A stretch of DNA of 39,328 nt, taken from the IMG/VR virus record IMGVR_UViG_3300009085_000014, positions 1 through 39,328 of that record, one strand, 5' to 3'. The translations under genes and the position numbers were made by a program. The notes under the pieces are model-generated. The model saw only the letters and a program-made list of their open reading frames with translations. It did no database searches and had not been told where the DNA came from. Positions 1,960-39,328 of the stretch are shown in pieces. The stretch comes from a virus. Positions within the stretch are counted from its first letter, which is position 1; every line of letters begins with the position of its first letter.

Positions 1960-2265
1960 ATGTCGAAGATGGTGGTGACCGGATATTCTGTGGTGTCGAA
2001 GCAATATCACCAGAGAGAAGAGACGACGTCTCTTCGCGTCGTTGGGCGATTCAAATGCCAAAGATGTGAACGAAACGCTGACAAGGAGTGTTCGCTTCGC
2101 ATTAGCAACGACGAAGTCCTTGCTGGACAGTCGAGCAGAGTCGAATTTCTGATAGAAAGAATCCAAGAGCTTGCGCCGTCATGTTCTTGCGATATGATGC
2201 GTTGCCGCATCGGAACGGCGTACATGCGTAGGCATCGGTTGGCGCTGAAAGGGGAACGGATATGA
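1960..2265 (+). CDS. Small Cys-rich protein (101 aa)
   Basis: The ATG directly follows the previous stop (TGA then ATG), typical of a coupled operon. Residues show CQRCERNADKEC in the middle and CSCDMMRC near the C terminus, two Cys clusters compatible with a small zinc site. The C-terminal tail is strongly basic. No family recognised. DNA near its 3' end (2187-2226) resembles the operator-promoter motif of the minus-strand early genes; see findings. Confidence 0.55.
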   Translation: MSKMVVTGYSVVSKQYHQREETTSLRVVGRFKCQRCERNADKECSLRISNDEVLAGQSSRVEFLIERIQELAPSCSCDMMRCRIGTAYMRRHRLALKGERI

Positions 2266-28304: not shown

Positions 28305-28597
28305 GCTCTTTCGATGTCGGTGATGAAGTCGCTTTGATCTGCGAGTTCCGGGTTGGCGTTGCGCTGACTTCACAGTCCGAGGTGACATTGCAGGTTATTC
28401 GCCCTAGCGGGGTTGAGTCGAGGTACACATTCGGGCTCAACCAAATCACCGAGTCTTCGCCTGGAGTGTACAGGCGCAATCTTGTGCTCGACCGCCCCGG
28501 GCGCTGGCTTTACCGGTTCACGGCAACCGGGTCTTACCGTGGTACTACTGGGAACGTTGTGGTGAACGTTGACCCGAGCCCATTCAGCTCGGTCTAA
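28301..28597 (+). CDS. Small beta-sandwich protein (98 aa)
   Basis: ATGA overlap with the fibre gene. Sequence pattern (DEVALICEFRV, SEVTLQVIRPSG, GVYRRNLVLDRPGRWLYRF, VVVNVDP) is Ig-like, as in small phage proteins linked to tails or heads. Placed directly after the fibre it may be a fibre accessory protein. No catalytic residues seen. Confidence 0.5.
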   Translation: MSSFDVGDEVALICEFRVGVALTSQSEVTLQVIRPSGVESRYTFGLNQITESSPGVYRRNLVLDRPGRWLYRFTATGSYRGTTGNVVVNVDPSPFSSV

Positions 28598-32221: not shown

Positions 32222-32425
32222 TTACCAGCGCTGGATTCCGCGAATGGCCTCTTCGTTGGCCCCAAATTCGATCGATAGCTCACGGGCTGAGCGTGGGTCA
32301 TCCTGCATCTCGAGTGCAGCCAGCACCAGCTCCCTTGCTTCGTTCTCCGGCAACTCCGCGAAAATCGTATCCGCGTACATCTTGAGCTCTGCCTCGGTAT
32401 CCGCTCTGCTCGTTGCGCTTGCCAT
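32222..32425 (-). CDS. Small helical protein from a leaderless promoter (67 aa)
   Basis: ATG at 32425 is the first codon after a promoter whose -10 lies at 32438-32433, so transcription should begin within a base or two of the start codon; no ribosome site exists. The product is helical and acidic (EAELKMYADTIFAELPENEARELVLAALEMQ). It opens a separate minus operon with 32151-31627 and 31601-30966. The 70-bp gap to the next gene holds C-rich inverted pairs but no clear signal. Confidence 0.6.
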   Translation of the reverse strand: MASATSRADTEAELKMYADTIFAELPENEARELVLAALEMQDDPRSARELSIEFGANEEAIRGIQRW

Positions 32426-32461
32426 GTGTCGAATGATGCGTTAGCGCATCATTACCGTCAA
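32426..32461 (-). promoter_or_regulatory. Operator-promoter for leaderless gene (copy 1)
   Basis: On the minus strand, TTGACG (32461-32456), 17-bp spacer, CATCAT (32438-32433), ATG at 32425. The spacer and -10 carry the palindrome AATGATGCG / CGCATCATT (32432-32440 and 32445-32453, 4-bp centre). This 22-bp perfect palindrome would let a dimeric repressor block the core promoter. Confidence 0.65.
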
Positions 32462-32472
32462 GGCGAATCGAC

Positions 32473-32512
32473 AAGAAAAAACGCCCCGCAAATCACCATG
32501 ACCTGCGGGGCG
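32473..32512 (-). terminator. Strong minus-strand terminator
   Basis: On the minus strand, CGCCCCGCA (32512-32504) pairs with TGCGGGGCG (32490-32482), 9 perfect bp, and is followed by TTTTTTCTT (32481-32473). It ends the exonuclease/recombinase transcript right before promoter copy 1, separating the two minus operons. Confidence 0.9.
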
Positions 32513-32555
32513 GCCTCGTTCTATATTGGAGCCAGTGCTGATACTGATAGCGTGG

Positions 32556-33641
32556 TCAGTCTTCGCCTGGCTCACGCGGCCTGGCAGAAGGTGGCTGCGC
32601 GGGCTGTGACGCGTCCGCTGCTGTTGCCGCGGCCTGAGGAGGCTTAGCCGCCTTAGTAGCTCGCTCCTTGGCGCGCTCGGCCAGCTTTGCGTGCGCCTTG
32701 TCTAGTGCTGCTCCAACTGCGGCTTGACGCGATCCAGTGACAAGCTCCCCGTCTTCAGTCGGTGTACGCTCCTCGTTGCGAGCTTCAAGGATCTCAGTCC
32801 AGGTAGCGTCCCCGTCCGAAATCGCCTGGAAGATTCCGCGCAACATCTGCAACTCGTTCACGTCGATTGACGCGACAGGGTGCCCTAGATACTCAGCGAG
32901 CTGAGCTGGCATCACGCGAAGCTTTTCGAACGAGTCCACAACGCGCTTGATCTCCGCATTCGGGTCCTTCGCGAACTTGTCCTTTCCGATCGCGATACAG
33001 CGCTCCTCGCACTCTTCTTTGATGTCCGCCGGGAGCAGCCGCAGCACTAAGGTTCGCAACGACTTGCTCACCAGCTGATTTTTGCGCTGCGTGATCTCGT
33101 CCACGGTGGCCGCTAGCGTGTATACGGGTTTCCCCTGCGAGTTGGTGCGACTCGAGATTGGGTTGTCGCCGCGCCGTAGAAACGACCGCTCCGTCGTCTT
33201 AGACACGAGGACAACGTCATCGAGGATTGCGTTGCGCTCGTAATCGCGAACGGTAACAGCGATCGTGAGTTTCTCGTCGTCTTCGTACACAACCTCGCTC
33301 GATCCGGACATGTTGCCCATATGCCGTAGCGCCGCCTCGGCGAATCGAATCGAGAATCCAGTGATTTCGACTTTCTCGCGTTCATTCGTGTCGGGATTGT
33401 ATTTGGTACGAGGCAGACTGTACCTCGCCTTCTCGGCGAAGCGAGGCCGTTCGCACTCTTGGAGTAGCTGCGCGCGTACTTGCAGCATGTCGCGAGGGTG
33501 CCGCTCGGCCATGATGCATGCTGCCTCGATGTTCGCCTTGACCTTTGCGGCCATCGCAATCGAAGCCACCTCTGCATTGCGCTGACGCTCGATTGCTCCG
33601 AACGACTCCGTGGTCACTATTGCAGTTTCACCGTTTGCCAC
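32556..33641 (-). CDS. Putative single-strand annealing protein (recombinase) (361 aa)
   Basis: GTG start at 33641 overlaps the exonuclease gene by 14 bp, with AAGG upstream; this exo plus SSAP coupling is the classic recombination pair. The protein resembles a large family of phage annealing proteins: RPRDMLQVRAQLLQECERP, FAEKARYSLP, GFSIRFAEAALRHMGN, VSKTTERSFLRRGD, and NQLVSKSLRTLVLRLLPADI. The C-terminal ~60 residues are an Ala/Pro/Lys-rich tail. It should anneal complementary strands exposed by the exonuclease during repair, concatemer formation or recombination. Confidence 0.7.
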   Translation of the reverse strand: MANGETAIVTTESFGAIERQRNAEVASIAMAAKVKANIEAACIMAERHPRDMLQVRAQLLQECERPRFAEKARYSLPRTKYNPDTNEREKVEITGFSIRFAEAALRHMGNMSGSSEVVYEDDEKLTIAVTVRDYERNAILDDVVLVSKTTERSFLRRGDNPISSRTNSQGKPVYTLAATVDEITQRKNQLVSKSLRTLVLRLLPADIKEECEERCIAIGKDKFAKDPNAEIKRVVDSFEKLRVMPAQLAEYLGHPVASIDVNELQMLRGIFQAISDGDATWTEILEARNEERTPTEDGELVTGSRQAAVGAALDKAHAKLAERAKERATKAAKPPQAAATAADASQPAQPPSARPREPGED

Positions 33642-34629
33642 GCTTTACCTTTTCTTTCTTGCTGCGGAGCACACGATGGCTCGATGCCTGCACCATGTAC
33701 TCACCTCGTTCCGTTGTATTGTTGCTCCACTCTGCGATTCCGTCAACCGTCTCAGGAAGAACACCGACGCTAGCGTTTCCAATGGCTTGCTTGATGCAGT
33801 TACGAAGCTCATCTCGGCGCGTCTCAAGTTCCTTGAGTGTTGGCGCGATCGATTGCAGTTCGCGGGTCCACTCAATTGCCTCTTTCGGAAGTTCGACGCG
33901 CTCACCGTTATCTTTCGGGTAGAGCAGCTTGAGTGCGTCGCTAGAGCGCCACGTTGCTGGAGGAGGATCTAACGTTTCGAGCCTGCGCGCCATGTCCTCC
34001 GCCGCCTCGCGGATGAGACAGAAGAAATCTTCATCAGGCGACATGTCGATTCGGACAAGCCGCGAAAGCCCAACGAGACACGTCACGATTGATTTTGGCG
34101 CACGTGTCACGAATAGCTGGGTTTGAACCTGCGCGATGACGTGGTCCGGCATTGCCCCGGTTTCCTCATCCCATCCTTGCGCCCTGTAGATCTCGGCCGT
34201 CTTACCCTCGTATGACACCCAAGGGTCGCCTGAGCCCTCGATTACCTCTGCGTCCTGAGTGCACCCGACGATCGGGAGCTCACGAGATACGAGTAGGTCT
34301 CCGGACATGCTCAGTGCTGCCCAGTTGTAGGCTCGCGCCGCTTCCTTTGCGATCCCGGACTCGAGCGCCTTGCCCCAAGTGCGACGGTCGTTGAGTCCGT
34401 GGTAAGTATCGTTACTTGGCACAAGTTTGCTGACGTAGACATCGAGCGCGTCGCGTCGCGGATCAAGACCAAGCAGTGCAGGAATCTCGCTCGCTGTCAC
34501 GAGCAGTCGTCTCGTTTCGAGCCACTTTTCTCTGTCAGAATCGCTTGCGCCGCTGAAAAACGCGTGCTCGCTGAACGCTGTCACCGCGCTCGTGTCGTCG
34601 TTATCTGGTATCGCAATTCCTAGTTTCAC
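33628..34629 (-). CDS. YqaJ/lambda-exonuclease family exonuclease (333 aa)
   Basis: GTG at 34629 behind GAAAGGAA. The PD-(D/E)xK core is clear: W36 and R40 then TASEIPALLGLDP (46-57), E90 in WGKALE, D126 in CTQDAEV, E141 and K143 in YEGKTA, and HVIAQVQTQL (163-172). A coiled C-terminal region (about 215-300) follows. It should be a 5'-3' dsDNA exonuclease that makes the ssDNA for the neighbouring annealing protein. Length matches YqaJ-type viral recombinases. Confidence 0.85.
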   Translation of the reverse strand: MKLGIAIPDNDDTSAVTAFSEHAFFSGASDSDREKWLETRRLLVTASEIPALLGLDPRRDALDVYVSKLVPSNDTYHGLNDRRTWGKALESGIAKEAARAYNWAALSMSGDLLVSRELPIVGCTQDAEVIEGSGDPWVSYEGKTAEIYRAQGWDEETGAMPDHVIAQVQTQLFVTRAPKSIVTCLVGLSRLVRIDMSPDEDFFCLIREAAEDMARRLETLDPPPATWRSSDALKLLYPKDNGERVELPKEAIEWTRELQSIAPTLKELETRRDELRNCIKQAIGNASVGVLPETVDGIAEWSNNTTERGEYMVQASSHRVLRSKKEKVKRGKR

Positions 34630-34657
34630 GTATCACCGTTCCTTTCGAAATAGATGG

Positions 34658-34704
34658 GCAACGCGGGTTCAAGGGGGGGGGGCATTTGAGGCAACCCGCG
34701 TTGC
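34658..34704 (-). repeat. 12-bp inverted repeat with ten-G loop
   Basis: GCAACGCGGGTT (34658-34669) and AACCCGCGTTGC (34693-34704) pair perfectly around a 23-nt loop holding ten G (plus strand, 34673-34682), C on the transcribed strand. It lies between the tRNA-like gene and the exonuclease start. No U tract follows, so a processing or stability hairpin is more likely than a terminator. Confidence 0.7.
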
Positions 34705-34710
34705 ACCTTG

Positions 34711-34791
34711 TGGAGCGGACTGGATTCGAACCAGTGACCACATGCGAACAGGACTCCTGTCGCTTAGCCCTACCGTTGAGCTTACCGCCCC
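34711..34791 (-). tRNA. tRNA-like gene, anticodon not assignable
   Basis: Read on the minus strand the 81 nt show a 7-bp acceptor (GGGGCGG with CCGCTCC, one G-U), a D-arm (GCTC, AACGGTA, GGGC), a perfect 5-bp T-arm (ACTGG, TTCGAAT, CCAGT) and discriminator A; CCA is not encoded. The anticodon arm is abnormal: GCGA/TCGC could close it, but the enclosed sequence has CAGG-AGT-CCTG, which folds on itself, and no 7-nt loop with U33 can be placed. It is about 8 nt longer than a standard tRNA. It could be a degenerate tRNA, a mimic or an unusual functional tRNA. Confidence 0.65.
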
Positions 34792-34795
34792 TAGT

Positions 34796-34825
34796 GGCGC
34801 CCGGTGTTACCTGTCACCGCGCGCC
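34796..34825 (-). repeat. Hairpin 5' of the tRNA-like gene
   Basis: GGCGCCCGGTG (34796-34806) and CACCGCGCGCC (34815-34825) form an 11-bp stem with one mismatch and an 8-nt loop. On the minus transcript it precedes the tRNA-like gene by 4 nt and may guide 5' processing. Confidence 0.55.
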
Positions 34826-34871
34826 GGAGTTGGATGTATGACCTGTCGATTCACCTCCGTCAACTGTAATT

Positions 34872-34890
34872 CGTCGTTGAAGCAACGACG
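34872..34890 (-). repeat. Hairpin just after the 61-aa gene
   Basis: CGTCGTTG (34872-34879) and CAACGACG (34883-34890) form a perfect 8-bp stem with a 3-nt loop, 1 bp past the stop codon on the minus strand. There is no U tract; a stability element or weak rho-dependent site is possible. Confidence 0.5.
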
Positions 34891-34891
34891 C

Positions 34892-35077
34892 TCACCCTGC
34901 CGATCGTAACGTTTCTGGGCAGGTGTCGAGTCTTGATTCGGCGCGCTCAGCGATGTCGCGTACGCGGTCCAGTATGATCTCGGTCTCGTACGCCTGACGC
35001 TGGTGCTCGCGCACCGTCATGTACGTTACGCATCCGAGTTCCGCTAGATCTGAAGTCCTGAGTCTAGGCATTGTCAT
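34892..35077 (-). CDS. Small helical protein (61 aa)
   Basis: ATG at 35077 (or 35071) overlaps the end of the upstream gene (stop at 35064-35066), which supports translational coupling. The product is mostly helix (REHQRQAYETEIILDRVRDIAERAESRL), charged and basic at the ends. The longer frame to 35203 is a read-back through the other gene. Family not recognised. Confidence 0.5.
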   Translation of the reverse strand: MTMPRLRTSDLAELGCVTYMTVREHQRQAYETEIILDRVRDIAERAESRLDTCPETLRSAG

Positions 35078-35381
35078 CCTCGATTTCGTCTGAGCGGGCG
35101 CTGAGCCCTCGTGAGAATTCTGCGAGACGGCGGCGGATATTGTCCACCATGATTTGATCGTCACGACAATGCAGCGAAGGGAAATTATCCGCCGCATCGC
35201 CAAGCAAGTCCGCGATAACGCGGAGCGAATTCGCGTCTTGAATCGACTCGTTCAGTACCGACTCTGGGACACGCGCCCGCTCCGTAGTGTCGCCAGGTCC
35301 AGGGATTGAGTCGAACTCGTCGCGCGTGCGAACCGTGTCACGTCGATCGATAGATGTGCAGGCGTTGATTGTTCTAGACAT
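35064..35381 (-). CDS. Unknown protein with occluded ribosome site (105 aa)
   Basis: ATG at 35381 (MSRTINACTSIDRRDTVRTRD) with an exceptionally strong AGGAGG 3-4 nt upstream. That site lies in the right half of a 23-bp inverted repeat and can be hidden. The product is acidic and helical (IADLLGDAADNFPSLHC, DDQIMVDNIRRRLAEF). No family recognised. Expression is probably controlled at the level of translation. Confidence 0.55.
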   Translation of the reverse strand: MSRTINACTSIDRRDTVRTRDEFDSIPGPGDTTERARVPESVLNESIQDANSLRVIADLLGDAADNFPSLHCRDDQIMVDNIRRRLAEFSRGLSARSDEIEDDNA

Positions 35382-35382
35382 A

Positions 35383-35445
35383 CCCCTCCTACCCGGCGCC
35401 ACAACCGCTGCGGAACAGACCAGTTGTGGCGTCGGGTAGGAGGGG
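35383..35445. repeat. 23-bp inverted repeat over a Shine-Dalgarno site
   Basis: Arms at 35383-35405 and 35423-35445 are complementary over 23 bp with one exception (35396 with 35432: G-U if transcribed rightwards, C-A on the minus transcript), and a 17-nt loop. On the minus strand the distal arm contains the AGGAGG of the gene starting at 35381, and the proximal arm has CCTCCT opposite it. Candidate translation switch, attenuator or RNA-processing element. Confidence 0.8.
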
Positions 35446-35466
35446 GACCGGAGTCCCCCAGAATCA

Positions 35467-35697
35467 CTAGGCAGGGTAGTCGCACGGGTCTACCTTGCGC
35501 AGGCGGAGCTGGCACGTGGCCCGCGACTCGTCGTGTAGCACCTCGTAGACCTCACAGTCGCTGTAGCCACCTTGCGCATGACAGGCGCGTGTGTCTGCGG
35601 CTCTCGATGCGATGGCCCTCTCCAACTTGAGGTGTCTACTGATCTCGCCGCGGACGGCGCCTTGGACCACGTAATTGTACGAGCATCTGCTGGTCAT
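35467..35697 (-). CDS. Small Cys-rich protein (76 aa)
   Basis: ATG at 35697 follows GGGAG at 6 nt. The product has a basic helical stretch (GEISRHLKLERAIASRAAD), Cys residues in pairs of positions (ACHAQGGYSDCEVYEV, CQLRLRKVDPCD) and no known family. It sits 13 bp after the previous gene. The frame extends to 35814, but that stretch lies within the other gene. Confidence 0.5.
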   Translation of the reverse strand: MTSRCSYNYVVQGAVRGEISRHLKLERAIASRAADTRACHAQGGYSDCEVYEVLHDESRATCQLRLRKVDPCDYPA

Positions 35698-35710
35698 TTT
35701 GATCTCCCCG

Positions 35711-36079
35711 TCAGAACCGTTCGACCTTGTGTCCCTCTCGCTCCCAGAGCGAGGTGTAGAACTTCGCCATCTTCTCGGCGAAGCGCCCGTGCCACTCGAC
35801 CTCACGGACACCAAGTTCCTTCGTTGTTACCCTCAATCTCACCACCACCACCGTCGTCGCCTTAGCCATGTCCCGATGATGATGCGTTTGCGCATCACCG
35901 TCAAGTGGGGATGCGACTTTTTTTGCGTAGCAGCCGTCGCAGAGCTCCGGCCTGTCATCCGCGGCGCCCTGTGCCCATGGTGTGTCTCTGCCGCACAGCG
36001 CGCATCGGAATGTTTCTGGCGCATCGGACTGATGGTAATCGCGGACGCGTATTCCCCTGTTGTTGATCTTGCACCACAT
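35711..36079 (-). CDS. Zinc-ribbon protein with internal leaderless start (122 aa or 52 aa)
   Basis: From ATG 36079 (GGGAG upstream) the product has a zinc ribbon, CALCGRDTPWAQ then CDGCYAKK (C-x2-C, C-x2-C), followed by HHHRD and MAKATTVVVVRLRVTTKEL. An ATG at 35869 gives only the last 52 aa (VRLRVTTKELGVREVEWHG and a basic tail). That ATG directly follows the operator-promoter at 35904-35876. Two products from one frame are therefore possible. The zinc ribbon looks clearly coding, so I prefer the long gene with an internal promoter. Confidence 0.5.
   Translation of the reverse strand: MWCKINNRGIRVRDYHQSDAPETFRCALCGRDTPWAQGAADDRPELCDGCYAKKVASPLDGDAQTHHHRDMAKATTVVVVRLRVTTKELGVREVEWHGRFAEKMAKFYTSLWEREGHKVERF
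35870..35904 (-). promoter_or_regulatory. Operator-promoter for leaderless gene (copy 2)
   Basis: On the minus strand, TTGACG (35904-35899), 17-bp spacer, CATCAT (35881-35876), ATG at 35869. The palindrome TGATGCG / CGCATCA (35880-35886 and 35891-35897, 4-bp centre) overlaps the spacer. It shares the layout of copy 1 and probably the same regulator. Confidence 0.65.
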
Positions 36080-36124
36080 CCGCTGGTGCTCCCACGCATC
36101 ACCTGCGCTAGCAACTGAATCCGC

Positions 36125-36160
36125 TTGACATTGATGCTTTTCAGCACCAGTACTCGCAAC
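36125..36160 (+). promoter_or_regulatory. Operator-promoter of the HTH gene (copy 3)
   Basis: TTGACA at 36125-36130, then TGATGC-TTTTCA-GCACCA at 36132-36149 (one mismatch from the perfect TGATGC-N6-GCATCA), and ATG at 36161, 30 nt after the -35. The -10 is weak (AGTACT at 36149-36154, 18-bp spacer). It drives the plus early operon and likely is autoregulated. Confidence 0.55.
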
Positions 36161-36355
36161 ATGAGCAATCTGGGCCAAAGAAAGCTGAAGAAATGGCGAG
36201 GGGATAGGGGGCTACGCGAGGCAGCCAGAGCGCTCGGGGTCGACTACCGCTCGTATTACCGGTGGGAGGTCGAGGGGATTGTGCCCGGGTACGCCAGCCG
36301 CAAACTGTGCAACGACGTCGCGGGCATCCCAATAGAGGACTGGGATCATCGATGA
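36161..36355 (+). CDS. Cro/CI-like HTH regulator (64 aa)
   Basis: The start is the ATG 30 nt after the -35 box, with no ribosome site. The protein has a helix-turn-helix: LREAARALGVDYRSYYRWE (18-36), then VPGYASRKLCNDVAG. It is as small as Cro. As the first gene of the plus operon, divergent from minus promoter copy 2 and followed by a coupled gene (ATGA at 36352), it is the natural candidate to bind the three shared palindromes. Confidence 0.65.
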   Translation: MSNLGQRKLKKWRGDRGLREAARALGVDYRSYYRWEVEGIVPGYASRKLCNDVAGIPIEDWDHR

Positions 36356-38541: not shown

Positions 38542-38774
38542 TCAACACAACGCTGAGGGGGAAGCCGCGCCTCGAAGACGTCACTGGGAAACTCGTCGGC
38601 CCATACGTGGTGGTTGGCCCTGTCGGGAGTGATTGGCGCACTTCGATCTACTGGGTGCTGCGTTGCCGTCTGTGCGGAATGCGCGAAAGCGCGTGTCGTC
38701 AAAAGTGGGCATTGACCAGTAGGCGAAAACCATTGACGCGATTGCCTAAACGTGGTCATGATTGTGGCAAATGA
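38538..38774 (+). CDS. Small zinc-ribbon-like protein (78 aa)
   Basis: ATGA overlap at 38538 and again at 38771. The sequence has VTGKLVGPYVVVGPVG, then CRLCGMRESACRQKW and a final HDC. CxxC with a later Cys and His suggests a zinc ribbon of the kind that starts many phage HNH or DNA-binding proteins. No catalytic residues are visible. Confidence 0.5.
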   Translation: MINTTLRGKPRLEDVTGKLVGPYVVVGPVGSDWRTSIYWVLRCRLCGMRESACRQKWALTSRRKPLTRLPKRGHDCGK

Positions 38775-38962
38775 CGACGCTGGACAGGATGCTGGTGTGT
38801 CTCGAGACCGGGCTTAGCCTCCCAGTTCTGAGCCGATGGGACAACGGAAAACCGATTCGGGAGGCGAACAAACGCACAATCGAGGCGGCAGTAAAAAAGC
38901 TTGGAAACAAGCTGCAGTCGTCTCGGAACTACCAGGGGGATCAGGCTGGTGCGAGGCAATAA
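38771..38962 (+). CDS. Small HTH protein (63 aa)
   Basis: ATGA overlap at 38771. The product reads LETGLSLPVLSRWDNGKPIR then NKRTIEAAVKKLG, a helix-turn-helix of the XRE/MerR-like kind with a final helix. It is adjacent to the replication initiator (next start directly after the stop). It may help control replication or act as a Cro-like protein. Confidence 0.55.
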   Translation: MTTLDRMLVCLETGLSLPVLSRWDNGKPIREANKRTIEAAVKKLGNKLQSSRNYQGDQAGARQ

Positions 38963-39328
38963 ATGGACTGGTCAAACGAGTCCTATGTGCGCCTTTACGT
39001 ACGAGACACGAAGACGTGGATCCGTCTCGGGTGGGAGGGTCAAGTCGTGCTCACGCTGGCGCTTCGGAAGCTCGACAGGGCTGGCCTACTCGACGACGTA
39101 TCGACGGCAGATGACCTAGCCGTGATGCTCGGAAACGGAATCCCTGTTTCGATCGTTGAAGTAGGCCTATCCAGGCTGCTCGACCGTGAGGTGTTCGTGC
39201 TTGTCCCGTCCGGTCTGCTCATGCCTCACTTCATCGAGGCTCAGGAATCCCGGAAGTCGGACCCGCAACGTCAGCGTGAGTCGCGTGAGAAAAAACGTGC
39301 CATGTCACGATTCGTGACGCATGAGTCA
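38963..39328 (+). CDS. Replication initiator, 5' part (continues at 1-1008)
   Basis: ATG at 38963 directly follows the previous TAA. Residues 1-90 (WSNESYVRLYVRDTKTWIRL, LALRKLDRAGLLDDV, GLSRLLDREVFVLV) match the winged-helix N terminus of phage replisome-organiser proteins. Position 39206 equals position 1 of the window, and the frame is kept, so this and 1-1008 are one 416-aa gene. The window ends inside it, in the first GTCAC-box unit. Confidence 0.72.
   Translation, partial: MDWSNESYVRLYVRDTKTWIRLGWEGQVVLTLALRKLDRAGLLDDVSTADDLAVMLGNGIPVSIVEVGLSRLLDREVFVLVPSGLLMPHFIEAQESRKSDPQRQRESREKKRAMSRFVTHES
39206..39328. repeat. Terminal direct repeat, right copy
   Basis: Identical to bases 1-123 over all 123 bp, so it carries the same part of the initiator gene and the first origin boxes. 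It shows circular closure of the assembly. Confidence 0.95.

Follow-up and report, generated by a model that had tools for sequence, protein, structure and literature searches.

The IMG/VR virus record IMGVR_UViG_3300009085_000014 (39,328 bp; this whole stretch is the window referred to below) raises the question of what acts on a set of matching palindromes that lie in promoter-like sequences directly ahead of start codons. Three sites share one layout, TTGACR, then TGATGC-N6-GCAYCA, then an ATG 29-30 nucleotides (nt) past the -35 hexamer. One syntenic relative was found, IMGVR_UViG_3300033481_000005 (hereafter the relative). The reading that we hold with moderate confidence is that the palindromes are operators of one dimeric regulator, for which a 64-amino-acid (aa) helix-turn-helix (HTH) protein is the likely candidate, and that they sit in leaderless promoters on both early arms as well as at the regulator's own gene. 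The two related uncultivated phages would thus represent a new lineage with what resembles a genetic circuit of the Cro/CI type, familiar as a form of control but unusual in its layout.

Palindromes and predicted promoters in the early regions

Site 1 reads, on the minus strand, TTGACG-GTAA-TGATGCGCTAACGCATCA-TTCGACAC-ATG at 32425; site 2, also minus, TTGACG-G-TGATGCGCAAACGCATCA-TCATCGGGAC-ATG at 35869; and site 3, plus, TTGACA-T-TGATGCTTTTCAGCACCA-GTACTCGCAAC-ATG at 36161. Counted from where the -35 hexamer ends, the ATG follows at 30, 29 and 30 nt. A sequence-only reading had described these sites as a three-site regulon, and its sequences, coordinates, spacings and mismatch count (two palindromes perfect, the third with one mismatch) are all exact. 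However, it missed a fourth palindrome in the control region and another in coding sequence. We refer to the predicted promoters as P1 to P3 and to the candidate operators as S1 to S4.

32433 to 32461, minus strand: promoter P1, -35 TTGACG (32461-32456), 17-nt spacer, -10 CATCAT (32438-32433); kept in the relative.
32434 to 32451: operator S1, perfect palindrome TGATGCG-N4-CGCATCA, extending to AATGATGCG/CGCATCATT; perfect in the relative too.
35876 to 35904, minus strand: promoter P2, -35 TTGACG (35904-35899), 17-nt spacer, -10 CATCAT (35881-35876).
35880 to 35897: operator S2, perfect palindrome TGATGCG-CAAA-CGCATCA within an open reading frame (ORF); identical in the relative.
36125 to 36154, plus strand: promoter P3, -35 TTGACA, -10 weak or absent (AGTACT at 18 nt).
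36132 to 36149: operator S3, one mismatch, in the P3 spacer.
36084 to 36101: operator S4, one mismatch, TGATGCGTGGGAGCACCA on the minus strand; TGATGCGTGGGAGCATCG in the relative.
2195 to 2212, plus strand: fifth palindrome, one mismatch, TGATGCGTTGCCGCATCG, within the coding sequence of a 101-aa gene and unchanged in the relative.

S1 occupies the spacer of P1 and overlaps its -10, and a sigma-70 scan independently picks P1 and P2. S4 lies 48 bp from S3, centre to centre, and ends 4 nt before the ATG at 36079 of the divergent gene; it includes an SD-like GGGAG (SD, Shine-Dalgarno) with an SD energy of -6.2. Synonymous conservation at the fifth palindrome is not significant (p=0.13), and coding conservation alone may account for it.

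Conservation and the case against chance

Within one mismatch the relative carries the same five palindromes and no others, and in the alignments the sites stand out as conserved islands amid DNA that is otherwise poorly conserved. Neither phage has a mismatch in S1 or S2, which lie remote from the HTH gene, and both have one each in S3 and S4, the pair next to that gene. For S3 the mismatch falls in the right half-site in the window (TGGTGC) but in the left half-site in the relative (CGATGC). That the imperfect half switches sides while S1 and S2 stay perfect is expected for a DNA site of a symmetric dimer with graded affinity. In all six promoters of the two phages the ATG lies 29-30 nt from the -35, including the P3 of the relative (-35 TTGACC, again 30 nt), while the gap from the -35 to the palindrome is 1 or 4 nt. 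What is kept is therefore the distance from promoter to ATG. The -10 at S2 of the relative is CATGCT at 17 nt. The proposal that these are operator-promoters under one regulator, with a motif spacing kept in relatives, is thus supported by the one syntenic relative, where the sites are in place, fall into the same perfect and imperfect classes and keep their distance to the ATG.

The same spacings bear on whether the regulator would be an activator that realigns the promoter from within the spacer, as MerR does, instead of a repressor. Palindromes between -35 and -10 and weak -10 elements would suit activation. However, MerR promoters have spacers of 19-20 nt, and those seen here are 17 nt and already optimal; moreover, the palindrome slides by 3 nt between promoters and no MerR family match was found. 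We regard activation of this type as improbable.

S2 lies within an ORF that is itself conserved, and this allows its conservation to be read as DNA:

35711 to 36079, minus strand: 122-aa ORF with an N-terminal CxxC...CxxC knuckle and a C-terminal domain, open through S2 in both phages.
35711 to 35869, minus strand: predicted 52-aa product from an internal ATG at P2 (MAKATT...), in frame with the 122-aa ORF, without an SD.

This zinc-knuckle ORF keeps the same frame without a stop in both phages and is 69% identical over its 122 residues. Synonymous positions are identical at 8 of 8 places in S2 versus 38 of 70 outside (p=0.011), so that S2 is conserved as DNA inside coding sequence. The ATG at 35869 is thus internal to the conserved ORF, whose in-frame continuation through site 2 the sequence-only reading had missed, and at best the 52-aa protein would be made beside a second, longer product. 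The conservation of the upstream half suggests that it is translated; in that case the region would give a long product from a transcript that starts upstream and, perhaps, also a short one from P2. Just ahead of the embedded P2 the ORF holds a run of seven A (GCAAAAAAAG), kept in the relative, which could be a slippage site or an UP-like tract.

Five matches to TGATGC-N6-GCATCA with at most one mismatch occur in the window versus 0.15 expected, in a test that used the motif of the sequence-only reading, picked after looking, and motif-blind tests were therefore added. A count of near-palindrome families is not significant, since 45 of 60 shuffles hold some family of at least five. Two perfect 7-bp-arm repeats that share arm and spacer appear in 4 of 150 shuffles; such a same-arm pair is present in both phages, with the arm TGATGCG in each. 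The window holds three cases in which TTGAC, a perfect 6-bp-arm repeat and an ATG 28-31 nt on come together, and none of 300 shuffles holds more than one. Of these three, the GC-rich repeat at 28569 is accompanied by an SD-like AAGGAG and is probably unrelated. A scan of viral contigs for TTGACR plus palindrome gave 34 matches, close to our own estimate of the chance number for that collection, and only the relative has two. A literature search on the operator sequence returned nothing relevant. We consider it very improbable that the palindromes are fortuitous and were kept by coding conservation or because the two phages are close. The unremarkable family count and the site at 2195, in coding DNA and not conserved beyond coding, would agree with such an origin, but the shuffle tests on same-arm pairs and on the promoter conjunction, the conserved islands in poorly conserved intergenic DNA and the synonymous conservation at S2 all speak against it.

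Proposed leaderless starts

None of the three site ATGs shows SD pairing, as had been noted before. The duplex energies with the anti-SD sequence are +1.0, -1.1 and +0.6 kcal/mol for sites 1, 2 and 3, weaker than for random 15-mers (median -2.5) and far from the median of -6.3 for 25 other genes, most of which have an SD, although this last contrast is inflated because the comparison starts were partly picked for a good SD. At P1 and P2 the 17-nt spacer leaves 6-7 nt from the -10 to the A of the ATG, which is the usual distance from a -10 element to +1. This promoter geometry would place the transcription start at the ATG or one base before it, and the transcripts from P1 to P3 would be leaderless. 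Transcripts without a leader, and a site of lower strength at the gene of the regulator itself, would agree with the fixed distance from -35 to ATG, the SD-less starts and the mismatch classes. Ahead of P1 a further element is found:

32476 to 32512, minus strand: intrinsic terminator, 14-bp stem and T-run, -25.7 kcal/mol (z -4.6); in the relative -23.9 (z -4.6).

It closes the operon of the exonuclease and recombination genes about 20 nt ahead of the P1 -35. Both phages have it immediately ahead of P1, which makes a separate promoter necessary at this point.

The operators could also be real and the mRNAs not leaderless, with transcripts that start upstream and carry the palindrome as a hairpin in their 5' untranslated region, or with genes that are read from longer transcripts. 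This would suit site 3, where no good -10 was found; the independent scan recovered sites 1 and 2. RNA of S1 and S2 could fold a 7-bp hairpin at -8.5 kcal/mol, and RNA across S2 must exist if the 122-aa protein is made. However, window S3 shows no more folding than shuffled sequence (z -0.15), and the A-C mismatches of window S3 and S4 would break an RNA stem. The strong terminator lies just ahead of the P1 -35, the ATGs have no SD that a leader could use, and the palindrome overlaps the -10. We therefore regard transcripts with leaders as unlikely.

Candidate regulators

Two small proteins come into question as binders of the palindromes:

36161 to 36355, plus strand: 64-aa HTH protein and putative Cro/CI-like regulator, the presumed binder of the operators.
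38733 to 38962, plus strand: second small HTH-like gene, ATG at 38771, promoter TTGACG-18-CATGAT, no SD, no palindrome.

Between the window and the relative the 64-aa protein shares 80% identity. It weakly matches HTH_28 (E=0.0006) and HTH_3 (E=0.026), both short of the curated Pfam cut-offs, and it has no relatives of solved structure by sequence. Its AlphaFold2 (AF2) model consists of four helices with a predicted local distance difference test (pLDDT) value of 67, and in a Foldseek search the top matches are 434 Cro (E=2.9), 434 repressor, ImmR and P22 c2, all with E of at least 2.9 and hence not significant. S3 and S4 converge on its gene. The 64-aa protein, encoded at P3, is the likely operator binder.

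The 38771 protein is 66% identical in the relative and has no family match; its HTH was recognized by eye only, from the look of a recognition helix (GLSLPVLSRWDNG). Its ATG lies 32 nt after the -35 in the window and 31 nt in the relative. In the window only, this ATG overlaps the stop of the preceding gene (ATGA), and translational coupling to that gene is possible there. Should the palindromes be operators of another protein, this one or a host regulator would be the binder. Its conservation, its recognition-helix look and its own SD-less promoter would speak for the 38771 protein, as does the HTH call of the 64-aa protein that misses the cut-off. Yet the 38771 promoter has no palindrome and the protein no family match, while S3 overlaps the promoter of the 64-aa gene and S4 flanks this gene. 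In addition, in actinobacterial loci of similar layout (see below) a perfect site stands at the XRE repressor's own gene. A different binder thus seems doubtful to us.

Several observations count against one dimeric regulator acting on leaderless promoters, in addition to the poor -10 of P3. The 64-aa protein is only weakly assigned as HTH, and there is another HTH-like protein. The motif is carried by two phages only; four more distant relatives, which share the recombination protein or the coiled-coil gene, have neither the motif nor the HTH gene. Furthermore, S2 of the window and S1 of the relative match over 28 bp at 96%, and S1 and S2 may be duplicates and hence not independent. Finally, a profile comparison of the 64-aa protein with the actinobacterial regulators detected no homology (probability below 4%).

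A proposed early circuit

Palindromic candidate operators of one sequence lie over the predicted early promoters of both arms and over the promoter of the putative regulator, an arrangement that fits a Cro/CI (XRE) circuit. We infer the binder, the direction of regulation, the order of occupancy and the leaderless starts as follows. On the leftward early arm, S1 and S2 take up the spacers of two sigma-70-like promoters and reach into their -10 elements. S3 takes up the spacer of P3, from which the regulator's own gene, the first of the rightward arm, would be read, and S4 overlaps the divergent leftward gene at its ribosome site and start. Once bound, the regulator would exclude RNA polymerase at P1 to P3 and so repress them, with the strong sites S1 and S2 shut first and the weaker S3 and S4 later, whereby the regulator would limit itself, as Cro does.

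A reading of the graded sites as a genetic switch of the lambda lysogeny kind finds no support, because neither a tyrosine integrase (PF00589) nor a serine recombinase (PF00239) matched in either phage, while the control genomes match in 14 of 14 and 11 of 14 cases. A Cro-like early shut-off is more economical, and a plasmid prophage state would still be compatible with these phages.

The gene behind P1 adds a further element:

32222 to 32425, minus strand: 67-aa gene, its ATG at +1/+2 of P1, predicted four-helix protein with weak similarity to sigma-70 region 4.

The protein is 76% identical in the relative, and Sigma70_r4 is matched (E=0.0042) by the copy of the relative only. The AF2 model has a pLDDT of 85; its best Foldseek match is SigA region 4, at an E of 1.1 that is not significant. 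As a lead, P1 may release a free-standing region-4-like factor that acts on RNA polymerase. A more elaborate version of the circuit, in which one small repressor sits in the -35/-10 spacers of several unlinked leaderless promoters, its repression of P2 switches between the 122-aa and the 52-aa product, and the free-standing protein read from P1, similar to sigma region 4, might redirect the RNA polymerase of the host, is tentative and in our view unlikely as a whole.

Genome context

The last 124 bases of the record (39205-39328) repeat the first 124 (1-124), and from this direct terminal repeat the genome is probably closed. The ORF at 16-1008 would then be the tail of a replication gene that begins near 38963. 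The leftward early genes extend between about 36079 and 30966; the rightward ones begin at 36161 and continue through the end of the record. Among the genes of the window are a terminase, a portal, a head gene and a YqaJ/RecE-like exonuclease; the gene neighbouring the exonuclease belongs to a family of unknown function, and we take it as a recombination partner. A replication-initiation-like gene was identified in the relative. Searches with the recombination protein or the coiled-coil gene found one close phage and several distant ones. Genome contigs gave no relative of the recombination protein, and therefore no host is named.

No Rfam family was found in the window. A tRNA-like sequence lies at 34710-34800 (minus) in the window and at L037:4860-4934 (minus). 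ARAGORN calls an unassigned tRNA in the relative and none in the window, and the pair aligns only in its D-arm-like and T-arm-like parts.

Comparison with known systems

In phage PY54 the cI and cro mRNAs have 5' ends at the AUG, as mapped by rapid amplification of cDNA ends (PMC4488713). PY54 also resembles the window in a small lytic repressor on an 18-bp palindrome and in an AT-rich UP-like sequence upstream (PMC4488713), with binding predicted for the phage described here. In contrast, PY54 has one operator between divergent repressor genes, while the window has four sites on two arms with non-repressor genes behind leaderless-type promoters, and no CI-like long repressor was identified in it. 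Leaderless repressor mRNAs are likewise described for paaR2 of CP-933P and for lambda cI (PMC8630535). PRM-cI of lambda and PRM-paaR2 of CP-933P combine a leaderless regulator mRNA with a promoter that overlaps the regulator's operators and with graded affinity (PMC8630535), features that we propose here as well. Unlike in lambda and CP-933P, the operator fills each -35/-10 spacer, and no recombinase or lysogeny module was found.

Pattern scans also matched seven actinobacterial-type loci (Clavibacter L077, Isoptericola L085, L004, L005, L015, L026 and L030). In these, TTGACR is followed after 1-3 nt by TGATGCA-N4-TGCATCA, in some cases with one mismatch, and a further 9-10 nt on by the ATG or GTG that starts an XRE repressor gene. 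Most of the divergent Cro-like genes carry an SD, and two of them are preceded by TGGTGCA-N4-TGCATCA, with the weaker half-site TGGTGCA. Judged from these sequences, the XRE repressors are apparently leaderless and autoregulated, so that the same layout recurs at presumably autoregulated repressor genes. They differ from the phage arrangement in that the repressor has about 150 aa and the site is at a single locus, compared with a 64-aa protein and several promoters here. As protein homology is not detectable, the likeness may be convergence, but it offers an independent parallel in favour of the operator reading. Beside these loci, the genome motif scan gave matches that look like chance. Uncultured Victivallis contigs (L058, L060, L079, L086 and L087) hold a repeated element with TTGACAGAATATGATGCAWTGTTGCATCATATTGACTGTCAA on many contigs, perhaps the end of a mobile element.

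Leaderless phage repressor mRNAs are thus already known, and leaderless phage mRNAs are known mainly for repressor genes. Distinct here are the layout at several non-repressor genes, an operator in every spacer and one promoter nested in frame, with a predicted mechanism. If several operator-controlled leaderless promoters indeed act in these phages, a single small protein would govern the transcription of early regulators together with their mode of translation. That actinobacterial elements show this layout too, and a half-site much like the phage one, points to a compact promoter-operator design that is accessible to pattern searches.

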